From Chthoniobacterales bacterium (lineage in GTDB: Bacteria > Verrucomicrobiota > Verrucomicrobiia > Chthoniobacterales > JACTMZ01), in contig JACSRX010000071.1 in assembly GCA_014879535.1 (NCBI GenBank), positions 1-59,289 on the forward strand: a DNA stretch of 59,289 nt, written 5' to 3'. The position numbers were made by a program, and so were the translations under genes. Every line of letters starts with the position of its first letter. Within the stretch, counting starts at the first letter, position 1. The notes beneath the pieces are model-generated. The model saw only the letters and a list, made by a program, of their open reading frames with translations, was not told the origin of the DNA and searched no databases. Below, piece by piece: positions 49,810 through 54,220 of the stretch.

Positions 49810-50172
49810 TCAGATCGGCAATACCCGCGCTTTTGTCTTGCCGGGAAGAATCGTGACGATCGCTCCCGCAAGCAACTCCTGCCGAAATTGAGTCAAGGCG
49901 GAGAGCAGAGTAGGACCGAGAACTTCCGGCGCAACATCCTCGACACGCGCCTGAATCACACTTGGTTTATGCGAGGCAGCATTGGCCAAGAGAGCACCGA
50001 AATCGAGATCATGCGTGAAGACGACAAACCCATGCGCCTTGGCATGCTCGAAAATGAGCCTGTCCTCCGCATCAGCCGCCCCGATGGAAAACCAATGAAC
50101 CGCGCTGACGCTATGACGGTTGAGGTAGCCAACCCATTCGGGGGTCAGGCATACGTCAACAAGCAACTTCAT
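49810..50172 (-). CDS. DUF5615 PIN-like toxin
   Basis: The 120-residue protein starts MKLLVDVCLTPEWVGYLNRH, with the first acidic residue of a PIN-like active site, and has VFTHDLDFGALLA with two further Asp. This is the DUF5615 family, thought to be RNases, usually paired with DUF433. Its ATG overlaps the DUF433 stop by 4 bases. The usual Asn/Asp in LVDxNLP is replaced by Cys (VDVCLTP), so its activity may be reduced. Confidence 0.75.
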   Translation of the reverse strand: MKLLVDVCLTPEWVGYLNRHSVSAVHWFSIGAADAEDRLIFEHAKAHGFVVFTHDLDFGALLANAASHKPSVIQARVEDVAPEVLGPTLLSALTQFRQELLAGAIVTILPGKTKARVLPI

Positions 50173-50393
50173 GCCGGCTGCAGATCAGCGTCGAAAGCTT
50201 CCGTGAGCCATGCAGCGTAAGAAAGCGCCGCAGAAATGTCCTCTTTCTCCAAATAGGGATACATTCGGAGAATTTCGGCCTCCGCATGACCCGCCGCAAC
50301 AAGACCCGTGATGGTTCCCACGGTGACACGGAGGCCGCGAATGCAGGGCTTGCCTCCCATGACCAATGGATTTCGGGTGATTCGCGGATGCAT
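50169..50393 (-). CDS. DUF433 antitoxin
   Basis: The 74-residue protein has the DUF433 signature ITRNPLVMGGKPCIRGLRVT followed by a helix-turn-helix-like AEAEILRMYPYLEKEDISAA. DUF433 proteins are antitoxins or DNA-binding regulators for DUF5615 toxins. It precedes the toxin gene and overlaps it, the normal order. The pair lies beside the attC-bounded cassettes but in the opposite direction. Confidence 0.8.
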   Translation of the reverse strand: MHPRITRNPLVMGGKPCIRGLRVTVGTITGLVAAGHAEAEILRMYPYLEKEDISAALSYAAWLTEAFDADLQPA

Positions 50394-50500
50394 GGATGCA
50401 CGTTATACCAGCAGAAATATGGGAGCAAGCGGTTGGGAAGGACCACTCCGTTCTGCCCCTCCCGCGACAGCATTCGACACCCCTCTCACTTCTTCGCCAC

Positions 50501-50532
50501 GGTAGGGCCGTGTGGCCTCACACGGCCGCACC
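50501..50532 (+). repeat. Dispersed hairpin repeat, type B short form
   Basis: GGTAGGGCCGTGTGGCCTCA then CACGGCCGCACC. The arms GGCCGTGTG and CACACGGCC pair around the conserved GCCT core, with different arm bases from the other type B copies. Confidence 0.75.
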
Positions 50533-50725
50533 CTCCCAAAACACTCGACGCACGCAATTCCGCATGGATAAATACCAGCCCGGTGCCATGAACCTCCAGA
50601 AATTCAGCGGCCACCCCATCCTCACACCCCTTCGCCACAGGTGCCGACTCATGGCACATCCTGAAACAAGGTGCTCTTATTGCATTGGACAACTCGTTGT
50701 TCAATTCCAATATTTTATACGGCTG

Positions 50726-50731
50726 TATAAT
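50726..50731 (+). promoter_or_regulatory. TATAAT -10 element upstream of the first cassette gene
   Basis: A consensus TATAAT lies 18 bases before ATG 50749 in a very AT-rich stretch. No good -35 box is seen at 16-18 bases. It could be the promoter that expresses the cassette array. Confidence 0.4.
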
Positions 50732-50735
50732 ATAC

Positions 50736-50742
50736 GTTCGGA
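50736..50742 (+). other. Left boundary of cassette array (attC/attI-like GTTCGGA)
   Basis: ACGTTCGGA lies just before the first cassette gene, as GACGTTCGCT and GACGTTCGCC lie just before the second and third. Only the G-TT core and flank are visible; no matching left half was found upstream. Confidence 0.45.
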
Positions 50743-50748
50743 AAAAAT

Positions 50749-51156
50749 ATGGTCCGATTAGCATACTCGCTGGCTCTCCTCACGCTTCTTTCAGGATGCG
50801 GCCTATTCGAAGTTTATGGGAAGCGTGAGCACGTCGTTGAGCGGTTCAAACTTGTGGACGAGAAGAGCGGGAAACCGATATCAGATGCTGATGTGACAAT
50901 CATGGCCACTCATGGACCACAAATTCTCCCCACAATTAACTTCGGAAGGCCGAGGAATGTTTCCGGAAGAACTGACCATCACGGAGAAGTGTTACTACGA
51001 ATCCCCCAAGGACCTAAGATCGAAAAATTAGCCTACGGCATCAAAGATAACGTTATTGTATTGCATCAATGGGAGATGCACTGGTCAAAGCCATCAGGAG
51101 ATACTACTATCTTGCTTGGCGACGCAGAGTCCACTTGGCAATATAGGAACAAATGA
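50749..51156 (+). CDS. Cassette 1: small lipoprotein
   Basis: The 135-residue protein has a lipoprotein signal (MVRLAYSLALLTLLSGC, Cys17) and a beta-rich body. Its FKLVDEKSGKPISDADVTIM followed by GRTDHHGEVLLRIP resembles carboxypeptidase-regulatory/Ig-like beta modules. It is much more AT-rich than the surrounding genome. Its stop is one base before the R box of an attC-like site (51158), the normal layout of an integron gene cassette. Function unknown. Confidence 0.65.
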   Translation: MVRLAYSLALLTLLSGCGLFEVYGKREHVVERFKLVDEKSGKPISDADVTIMATHGPQILPTINFGRPRNVSGRTDHHGEVLLRIPQGPKIEKLAYGIKDNVIVLHQWEMHWSKPSGDTTILLGDAESTWQYRNK

Positions 51157-51157
51157 A

Positions 51158-51271
51158 TCCGAACAGAGCGATGCACCGAACACCTACCCGCCGTCACGCC
51201 GAGTGCTTGGCGCTTCGCTCCCGGCACTCGTCGCGCCGTCGGTCCGGTGCCGGTGATCGCGGACGTTCGCT
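51158..51271 (+). other. attC-like recombination site 1
   Basis: The left half TCCGAAC-AGA-GCGATGCACC pairs with the right half GGTGATCGC-GGAC-GTTCGCT. CGAAC/GTTCG forms the R box, AGA against GTC the unpaired spacer, and GCGAT(G)CACC/GGTGATCGC the L box with one extrahelical G. A variable inner stem (CGAGTGC...GCACTCG) lies between. These are the defining features of an attC site, folded from one strand. Cleavage would be at G-TT in 51265-51271. Confidence 0.72.
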
Positions 51272-51277
51272 AAAGAT

Positions 51278-52093
51278 ATGACACTCCGAGTCCTCATCGC
51301 GCTTCTGATCATGACGGGCTATGTTTCCGCCAACTGCGGTCAGGCTTTCCATCTGTTGGATACGGAGATTAAAGCACTCGTAGCAAAAGCGTCCGATGGG
51401 GATGCCAATGCCGCGTATCGGATGTGGAATTTCCACTCGATGTCCAGCCAGAATGAACAAGAGGCCGACAAGTGGCTTAGAACGGCCGCACGCTTGGGTC
51501 ATCCCGAGGCTCAACGCTGGCTTGCATATGAGATCAAGGATTGCGACAAGCCACCTGGAACTTTTGGCAAGACACCAAGAGCAGCGGTAGAATCACTTTT
51601 GCGGTCTGCTTCCCGAACAAGTGGAACAGCTGCGGACGATCTTGGAGAAGCATACAGGGATGGCTACCTCAAGCCACGCGACCGCCTTGCGAAAGCAAGA
51701 CAAGCGTTTTTCCTCGCCGCCGAGCACCACAATGCCAGTTCATGGGAAAGCCTTGCTGAGATGCTTTTCAACGGAGAGGGCGGCTCCGCTGATCCGCTAC
51801 AAGCATACTACTTCATCGTTTTATCCACTCAATGTGTTCACCCAGACTCGATCACCGGAAAAGAACTGTGGGAACTAAGAATGAGAATTGAGAAGAAACT
51901 GAATATTGAGCAGATGGCAGCCGTCTGGGACAAGGCGGATGCTTATCTCAAAATCGAGCGCAAATATGACGCAGGCCGTATATACCCACCAGCATTGTTG
52001 GGAACTGGCATCCCAAAAAAAGAATGGGAAAAGCGATTGAAGGAGACTGACAAGAAAGAATCAGCGCATCGGCGCTCTCTGCAAACACAATAA
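51278..52093 (+). CDS. Cassette 2: secreted Sel1-like repeat protein
   Basis: The 271-residue protein has a signal peptide (LRVLIALLIMTGYVSANC). Sel1-like/TPR repeats follow, for example GDANAAYRMWNFHSMSSQNE, KWLRTAARLGHPEAQRWLAY and SSWESLAEMLFNGEGGSADP. Such repeats bind other proteins. It begins 6 bases after attC-like site 1 and its TAA abuts attC-like site 2. No obvious promoter of its own is present. Function unknown. Confidence 0.7.
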   Translation: MTLRVLIALLIMTGYVSANCGQAFHLLDTEIKALVAKASDGDANAAYRMWNFHSMSSQNEQEADKWLRTAARLGHPEAQRWLAYEIKDCDKPPGTFGKTPRAAVESLLRSASRTSGTAADDLGEAYRDGYLKPRDRLAKARQAFFLAAEHHNASSWESLAEMLFNGEGGSADPLQAYYFIVLSTQCVHPDSITGKELWELRMRIEKKLNIEQMAAVWDKADAYLKIERKYDAGRIYPPALLGTGIPKKEWEKRLKETDKKESAHRRSLQTQ

Positions 52094-52219
52094 AGCGAAC
52101 AGACCGATGGACCAAATCACCATCCCTTCGGGACTTCTGGCGTGCTTCCTGCTGATTCCGCTTCGCGGGCAGGAAGCACGTCAGAAGCAAGTGGTGATTG
52201 GTCATCGGGGACGTTCGCC
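52094..52219 (+). other. attC-like recombination site 2
   Basis: The left half AGCGAAC-AGA-CCGATGGACC pairs with the right half GGTCATCGG-GGAC-GTTCGCC. The R boxes GCGAAC/GTTCGC are perfect, the three-base spacer is mismatched, and the L box CGATG(G)ACC/GGTCATCG has one extrahelical G at the same place as in site 1. A long inner stem (GTGCTTCCTGC...GCAGGAAGCAC) is unlike site 1's inner stem, as expected for attC variable structures. Confidence 0.78.
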
Positions 52220-52225
52220 AAAAAG

Positions 52226-52777
52226 ATGAAAGCCGTCCTCATTGCAGCATTCTTGGCCTCGCCGGTCGTCGCTCAACAGTTTGGCGATGACAACCAGAGT
52301 GGAGACTGGCTTCCACTACCGGACGGTTATGTATGGCCAGTCCCTCTGAAGGACGCTCCAGATTTTGAGCCCACCACAAAGGCGTTCAAGGAACTTCCGA
52401 AGGAATTGAGGAAGGGGATCGAAGAGTATTGGCCAGATGATGCACTGCCTGATTCGGTTGAGCTTTTCGAGTGTGACTTGAACGGTGACGGCAAGAATGA
52501 GGTCTTCTTTGCAATTCGCGCTTATAGCGGCACCGGCGGCACATTCTATGAGATATTGACACCCGAAGGCGCATCCTATCGTGGCGTGGGCGGAATCCAA
52601 GGATGGGGATTCCTCTTCCACAAGCGAAAGAACGATTGGTATCAGATCGAGGGCATGAGCCGAGGCGGAGGTGGCAATTACACGCGCTATCTTCTCGCTT
52701 TCGACGGTAAGGAGTATCAGACCGTGAGGAACGAGGGACATGACTTCAACCGAGGCGAGGTCGAGATCAGAAAATGA
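52226..52777 (+). CDS. Cassette 3: secreted hypothetical protein
   Basis: The 183-residue protein has a signal peptide (MKAVLIAAFLASPVVAQQ) and a soluble body with FECDLNGDGKNEVFFAIRAY, a calcium-binding FG-GAP-like element. It ends with an aromatic-rich region (WYQIEGMSRGGGGNYTRYLL). It starts 6 bases after attC-like site 2 and ends one base before the R box of a truncated third site. Function unknown; similar small secreted proteins are common in cassette arrays. Confidence 0.65.
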   Translation: MKAVLIAAFLASPVVAQQFGDDNQSGDWLPLPDGYVWPVPLKDAPDFEPTTKAFKELPKELRKGIEEYWPDDALPDSVELFECDLNGDGKNEVFFAIRAYSGTGGTFYEILTPEGASYRGVGGIQGWGFLFHKRKNDWYQIEGMSRGGGGNYTRYLLAFDGKEYQTVRNEGHDFNRGEVEIRK

Positions 52778-52778
52778 A

Positions 52779-52832
52779 GGCGAACCAGGCAGTGGACTCA
52801 ACGACTACCCGCCGTCACCGACAGGCAACATA
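52779..52832 (+). other. Truncated attC-like site 3 (left half only)
   Basis: GGCGAAC is followed by CAG, GCAGTGGACT and GACTACCCGCCGTCACC, resembling the left half of site 1 (ACCTACCCGCCGTCAC is shared with small changes). No GTTCGCC right half follows; the next gene starts at 52833. The site seems to have lost its right half. Confidence 0.55.
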
Positions 52833-53069
52833 ATGATCACGGTGCGAACATTCAGCGACTCAGTTGAAGCTGGACTGGCCAAGTCCGTTCTCGACTCAGC
52901 TGGGATTGCATCATTCCTTCACGGTGAAAACACCTTTCAAACCGATGCCGGGATAGATCTCGTGCTGCAATTGCAAGTCCCCGAAGATCAAGCGGCGGAA
53001 GCGTTGCTTCTCCTAAACAGAGGCAACCCAAAAGGCGGGAGTGGTGGCATCGGCCACGCCAAAAGCTAA
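52833..53069 (+). CDS. Cassette 4: DUF2007-type small protein
   Basis: The 78-residue protein begins MITVRTFSDSVEAGLAKSVL, then DSAGIASFLHGENTFQ and DLVLQLQVPEDQAAEALLLL. This is the layout of DUF2007 (putative signal-transducing protein), which usually reads VYxAxxxxEAxLxxxLLExxGI. It follows a half-deleted attC site, so cassettes 3 and 4 may now be fused. No attC-like site is seen after its stop before the convergent SDR gene. Confidence 0.7.
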   Translation: MITVRTFSDSVEAGLAKSVLDSAGIASFLHGENTFQTDAGIDLVLQLQVPEDQAAEALLLLNRGNPKGGSGGIGHAKS

Positions 53070-54080: not shown

Positions 54081-54220
54081 GTTGAGAGTTGAGGGTTGAA
54101 GGTTGAGAGAGAAAGGATCGGCGGCGGGGACGCCGCTACAAGAACTGTAGCGACGTGATTCGTCGATGATCTGCACTCGGTTCTTTGGCCACTCTCAACT
54201 CTCATCTCTCAACCCTCAAC
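54081..54220. repeat. Inverted GTTGAG-rich repeat with internal hairpins
   Basis: The left arm (54081-54110, GTTGAGAGTTGAGGGTTGAA) and the right arm (54191-54220, reading CTCTCAACTCTCATCTCTCA) are roughly complementary copies of a GTTGAG motif. Inside lie GCGGCG-GGGA-CGCCGC (54121-54136) and GCTACA-AGAAC-TGTAGC. It splits the ceramide-type genes and may be a mobile or structural repeat. Confidence 0.6.

Follow-up and report, generated by a model that had tools for sequence, protein, structure and literature searches.

A probable attC site in a small chromosomal cassette array with an attI-like head and no adjacent integron integrase in a Chthoniobacterales bacterium

Introduction

A long hairpin found at the end of an open reading frame in a Chthoniobacterales genome raises the question of whether it is the recombination site of a gene cassette and, since no integron integrase is encoded nearby, of what could act upon it. 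The hairpin occupies positions 52094..52219 on the forward strand of a 59,289-base contig (C46), which was analysed over its whole length and is called the window below; the assembly to which it belongs (G000) is a draft of 97 contigs that is 95.9% complete. The attC sites of integrons are imperfect inverted repeats in which R'' ends in AAC and R' starts with GTT, with L'' and L' arms and an extra-helical base in L''. Structure is kept in these sites rather than sequence, and they are located 3' of the cassette ORF. The integrase IntI is known to bind the arms of the folded site, with polarity given by the extra-helical base, and to cut at G|TT.

In the portion of the IntegronFinder 2.0 survey drawn on here, integrase-less cassette clusters (CALINs) occur roughly as often as complete integrons and are proposed to be degraded integrons, 22% of the intI-bearing genomes have more than one intI, and attI is poorly described and goes undetected outside class 1 (PMC9024848), so that CALINs headed by an attI would escape recognition as such. 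The sections used of three further sources state that the routes to CALINs include intI loss and that Verrucomicrobiota are among the integron-bearing phyla (PMC8618304), that an early survey counted roughly one intI gene in three as a pseudogene (PMC2426708), and that CALINs are mobilisable in trans and lie at conserved loci in Xanthomonas (PMC12444791).

Structure of the hairpin

The outer arms of the hairpin, R'' (52094-52100, AGCGAAC) and R' (52213-52219, GTTCGCC), pair at six of seven positions, with AAC at the end of R'' and GTT at the start of R'. The L arms (CCGAT-G-GACC versus GGTCATCGG, with L' at 52200-52208) are complementary at 10 of 10 positions around one extra, unpaired G at 52109, and a second unpaired base, an A, is found at 52114. 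R and L boxes that pair with a single extra G are what the original prediction had described, and the long central stem that it quoted was also recovered: the inner stem (52134-52152/52169-52187) has 19 pairs, including a single G.T, and contains GTGCTTCCTGC/GCAGGAAGCAC. Folded as single-stranded DNA, the bottom strand reaches -45.4 kcal/mol versus -20.4 ± 3.1 kcal/mol in 200 shuffles (z -8.2), none of which folds equally well.

The hairpin, hereafter site 2, begins directly after the ORF at 51278-52093. In tandem with it and in the same orientation, site 1 (51158..51271, + strand) begins one base after the ORF at 50749-51156; its fold has a z of -3.8 (0 of 200 shuffles as good) and it has relatives on contigs C1 and C59. 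The extra G lies nine nucleotides after the R arm in both sites, and their inner stems differ, in agreement with the earlier description.

This arrangement was cast as a fixed geometry in which R'' ending in AAC is followed nine nucleotides later by an extra base, with five positions compared on either side, and R' starting with GTT lies nine nucleotides from the gap on the right side, for a maximum score of 17. Site 2 ranked first in the window (16 of 17), site 1 second (15), and the next match scored 12; among 100 dinucleotide shuffles of the window a score of 16 was reached by none and 15 by two. Because the geometry had been set after both sites were known, it was tried elsewhere, on 80 loci (663,658 bp in total) that surround genes related to the integron integrase in many phyla, and yielded 16 matches scoring at least 15, in seven loci. 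All 16 lie on the strand antiparallel to intI, which is the strand expected of attC. Their extra base, at position nine after R'' as in site 2, is C in eight cases, G in four, T in three and A in one. The remaining 73 of the 80 loci contain no match at the threshold of 15, and the scan is therefore specific but insensitive. Two looser inverted-repeat scans had also recovered the sites, but they returned 3-10 and 8 chance matches per shuffle and were replaced by the fixed geometry for this reason.

Searched against the whole genome, the 126-bp site 2 gives four other strong matches (three on C5 and one on C19, E ≤ 1.1e-11) and a short match on C93, the sixth member of the family, so the complete site is not the high-copy repeat that had been named as the case against an attC. 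The hairpin has no match in Rfam at gathering thresholds, and a short gapped R-box pattern, which is unable to span the loop, gave a single chance match.

Covariation within the site 2 family

The window copy and its five same-genome relatives (three from C5, one from C19 and one from C93) were aligned. When the fold of the window copy is imposed on the alignment, 94.9% of the 235 cells are paired, compared with 33-46% when the partners are slid, and taking the structure from that copy favours the percentage paired, not the count of two-sided changes. Sixteen of the 44 pairs are altered on both sides among the six members, and two-sided changes occupy 25 cells, where shuffles give 9.2 ± 2.4 and the slid controls 1-4. 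Further pair types are not above the shuffles (279 of 500 shuffles as high). The outer R helix is the weakest in the family, with 78% paired, and one of the C5 copies (C5c) has GTC in place of GTT. An identification of site 2 as an attC is supported by all in silico features.

The cassette array

The array spans 50677-52818 on the + strand and consists of an attI-like site, two complete attC sites and half of a third, without intI. The attI-like site at its head (50677..50742, crossover GTT from 50736) was recognised by its likeness to copies on two other contigs; its identity is 76% with the intI-adjacent attI of C38 (over 72 nt), whose GACC it lacks, and 86% with the C93 copy (over 76 nt). 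Cassette 1 (50737..51265), delimited by its crossovers and containing the ORF at 50749-51156 (135 aa), measures about 0.53 kb from crossover to crossover, and its product has a lipoprotein-like start by eye and a single Pfam match, to DUF2606, that is below the cut-off. Cassette 2 (51266..52213, about 0.95 kb) carries the ORF at 51278-52093 (271 aa), with a Sel1 repeat below the cut-off. The ORF of cassette 3 (52229..52777, 182 aa) has no Pfam match. One base after it starts the left half of a third attC (52779..52818), which aligns over 53 nt, at 79% identity, with the left half of an attC on C15; no matching right arm occurs in the next 700 nt, and the right half is lost. The DUF2007 ORF that follows (52833..53069, + strand; PF09413, E 6e-8) may be either cassette or flank.

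No intI was detected by tblastn in the 59,289-base contig, the best match having an E of 0.03 at 33.5-33.8 kb. Searches for intI remnants upstream of the attI-like site, by tblastn with a word size of 2 and at the DNA level, returned chance matches and a dispersed REP-like repeat. As the array lies in the middle of the contig, the missing intI is not an effect of the assembly edge. The locus accordingly has one element of a complete integron, an attI at the head of the array, and lacks the other, an intI beside attI and array; with two attC sites and no neighbouring intI it classifies as a CALIN. It is situated between rnr and an epimerase gene, which are 4.6 kb apart. In the two genomes that could be compared, the genes are about 0.1 kb apart (G005) or separated by 1 kb that contains an unrelated ORF (G003); the stretches examined in the other eight relatives, several of them cut short, showed no full-length rnr beside the epimerase gene.

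Integrases and attI-like copies in the same genome

Two IntI proteins encoded elsewhere in the genome score above the NCBIfam integron-integrase cut-off of 265 bits, one on C38 (417) and one on C70 (399). They are 52% identical, and the start of the C70 gene is cut by the contig end. The nearest named IntI sequences come from MAGs labelled Blastochloris sp. (68%), Chthoniobacter flavus (51%) and Verrucomicrobia bacterium (48%). Contig C38 carries a full integron that comprises an intI directed away from the array, an attI and three attC sites, of which those at 922-1048 and 485-544 were scored by the scan and the third, at about 62-161, was located by eye.

Copies resembling attI are present on C38, C93 and C83 in addition to the window, with a left half on C88 and a right half on C5. 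Both halves are at contig ends and may be a single copy, so the genome has at least five attI-like sites. A decayed attI-like copy together with a decayed attC is found on C85. Similarity to intI beside attI extends over about 72 codons on C93 and about 85 on C88, and the genome therefore displays a series of intI decay beside attI, from the full gene on C38 through N-terminal remnants on C93 and C88 to none in the window.

Related genomes

An IntI above the cut-off is encoded in 19 of the 57 genomes compared and in five of the 11 within the genus, the window genome being included in both counts. A query with the attI of G002 recovered 16 attI-like copies in six of the ten other genomes of the genus (four each in G003 and G010, three in G002, two each in G004 and G006, and one in G007) and none in the window genome. 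Conversely, the attI type of the window genome was not found in those ten genomes, and a 15-base core pattern was likewise confined to the window genome. By these searches the genus has two diverged types of putative attI.

Only three of the 16 copies (in G002, G003 and G004) are beside a long intI; in the other 13, referred to here as satellites, intI is absent or a remnant. The remnants comprise 173 residues with a stop (G002_C76), 152 residues (G003_C42), a broken stretch (G010_C1b) and C-terminal scraps (G007_C19). With the geometry scan at a threshold of 13 of 17, the 2 kb downstream of the satellites, or less at contig ends, contain nine attC-like matches on the expected strand, in eight loci, and none on the other strand; one of the nine (G003_C20) appears by eye to be a chance palindrome. 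The corresponding 2 kb upstream contain none on the expected strand and one on the other.

Several loci can be aligned between species. The intI-bearing G004_C46 and G006_C36 have the left flank (94%) and attI (93%) in common, and about 2.1 kb including intI is absent from G006. G002_C76 and G010_C1b have the flank (89.6%), the intI remnant (90.1%) and attI (97.7%, 86 of 88) in common, and nothing past the crossover. In G002_C23 and G004_C46, both of which have intI, a cassette that adjoins attI in one is found, at 95% identity, 1.7 kb farther along in the other, which, read from the sequences, is the picture of an insertion at attI.

At one further locus (locus A) both flanks and attI are common to G006_C71, G010_C1a and G004_C52, and G003_C26 matches them in the right flank and over the stretch between -78 and +84. 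The attI copies are worn, with mutual identities of 69-87%. All four differ between attI and the right flank, which is reached again at about +643, +455, +1226 and +651; in global alignments of five pairs the first 350 bases past the crossover are about 50% identical and thus unrelated. The block from about -80 to attI has no intI match in any of the four, the only match in G010_C1a (E 0.003) being located elsewhere, and the intI-less state is for this reason probably older than the split. If so, the cassettes of locus A changed after intI was gone, either through an integrase in trans or through different losses from a longer array. The presence of different cassettes at shared intI-less loci suggests exchange by an integrase acting in trans. 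An intI is found elsewhere in the genomes of G003 and G004, and none was found in G006 and G010 at E ≤ 1e-60, which disfavours present-day service in trans in those two.

Interpretation of the window array

Site 2 very probably belongs to cassette 2 as its attC, within a small array on the chromosome that opens with an attI-like site and no longer has an intI of its own. The initial choice of an attC over a simple repeat thus stands, with the geometry, the covariation, the tandem copies behind ORFs, the attI-like head and two intI genes elsewhere in its favour, and what that first description overlooked is the attI-like head without intI and the halved third attC. The single-stranded bottom strand of site 2 would fold into the hairpin, IntI would bind its R and L arms with the extra-helical base setting the polarity, and a cut at the R arm (G|TT) would excise the cassette or allow its insertion at attI. 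We infer that the window sites may still be active and served by an IntI encoded elsewhere, and such service in trans is the preferred, as yet unproven, mechanism for this array. The third attC is broken and the window attI is without GACC, so the array may also be dead.

A wider proposal is that of a distributed integron, in which one or two integrases would serve scattered intI-less attI platforms that are kept across species and whose cassettes are swapped in trans, the window being one such platform; we advance it tentatively, at slightly less than an even chance. A dead relic, the remains of an ordinary integron that has merely been drifting since the loss of intI, with nothing acting in trans, is a serious possibility that we place only marginally lower. 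It would account for the half-deleted third attC, the divergence of the window attI from that of C38, the intI remnants with stops elsewhere and the decayed attI and attC on C85, but not readily for the near-perfect hairpin of site 2 and the compensatory changes in its family, nor for the two intI genes above the cut-off that remain in the genome or the cassettes that differ between species at the intI-less loci of relatives. Cassettes might also have been inserted off target at a genomic site where an integrase was never present, which is one published route to CALINs; the lack of an intI trace in the window and the shorter rnr-epimerase intervals in G005 and G003 speak for this, but an array headed by a 66-nt attI-like site rather than a bare GTT target makes it improbable. 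A reading of the hairpins as ordinary terminators or as palindromic repeats of a dispersed kind, which strong hairpins directly after ORFs might suggest, is very unlikely in view of the fixed geometry of their bulge, together with the flanking R arms and ACGTT, the enrichment of such matches only on the attC-expected strand beside intI and satellite attI, the missing Rfam match, the few genomic relatives, and the fact that none of the three terminator-like sites from a scan lies inside the hairpin.

Both attC sites and integrase-less arrays are already known, and the window array belongs to the known integrase-less kind. With CALINs, as the consulted parts of their descriptions define them (PMC9024848, PMC12444791), it has in common two or more tandem attC sites without intI, and it differs by the attI-like site at its head. 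Like a sedentary chromosomal integron, of which C38 carries a full example, it has attI, cassettes in one orientation and long attC sites, but it has no intI and only two complete attC sites. The CALINs and SALINs of Xanthomonas and Shewanella likewise lack intI and occupy several positions on the chromosome, in some cases conserved from one species to another, whereas the portions of those reports used here describe no attI at the clusters (PMC12444791, PMC9229058). Multi-copy attI platforms are not described in the integron literature searched, itself a part of the whole. Dispersed platforms with an attI at their head seem to be an under-described variant, set apart by this conserved head and by the way it recurs in genomes of the genus.

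Integrase-less cassette clusters are mostly treated as debris. If many of them keep an attI and are fed by a distant integrase, each integrase would have several sites for cassette landing and expression, and searches centred on intI would underestimate integron capacity. Conserved loci with and without intI that carry different cassettes would make the long-assumed activity in trans directly testable.

Additional features of the loci

The C38 intI (L052:1983-3392) and the intI genes of relatives encode about 150 extra N-terminal residues before the standard domain, and the intI remnants beside attI retain this extension. It matches a second SAM-like core-binding domain (PF13495), above the cut-off on C38 (E 1.6e-6) and just below it in the IntI of two relatives. 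In the genome of the nearest named integron (G057, L101) a second attI-like copy, 72% identical, is found at C111:7948-8022. The attI-headed array on C83 has a transposase-like ORF, presumably of the IS110 type, downstream of its first cassette (L081:3666-4628).

Between rnr and the array, the window contains a PIN-like gene (DUF5615) overlapped by a small upstream ORF (49810-50473), an arrangement that is toxin-antitoxin-like. A palindromic REP-like repeat of about 28 nt, GGTAGGGCC...GGCC, is located at 50501-50528 and has some 18 further genomic matches, including ones near intI on C38 and C70. An inverted repeat, GTTGAGGGTTGAAGG..., at 54088-54109 and 54199-54220 has similar pieces on C1 and C70 and is perhaps a miniature dispersed element.
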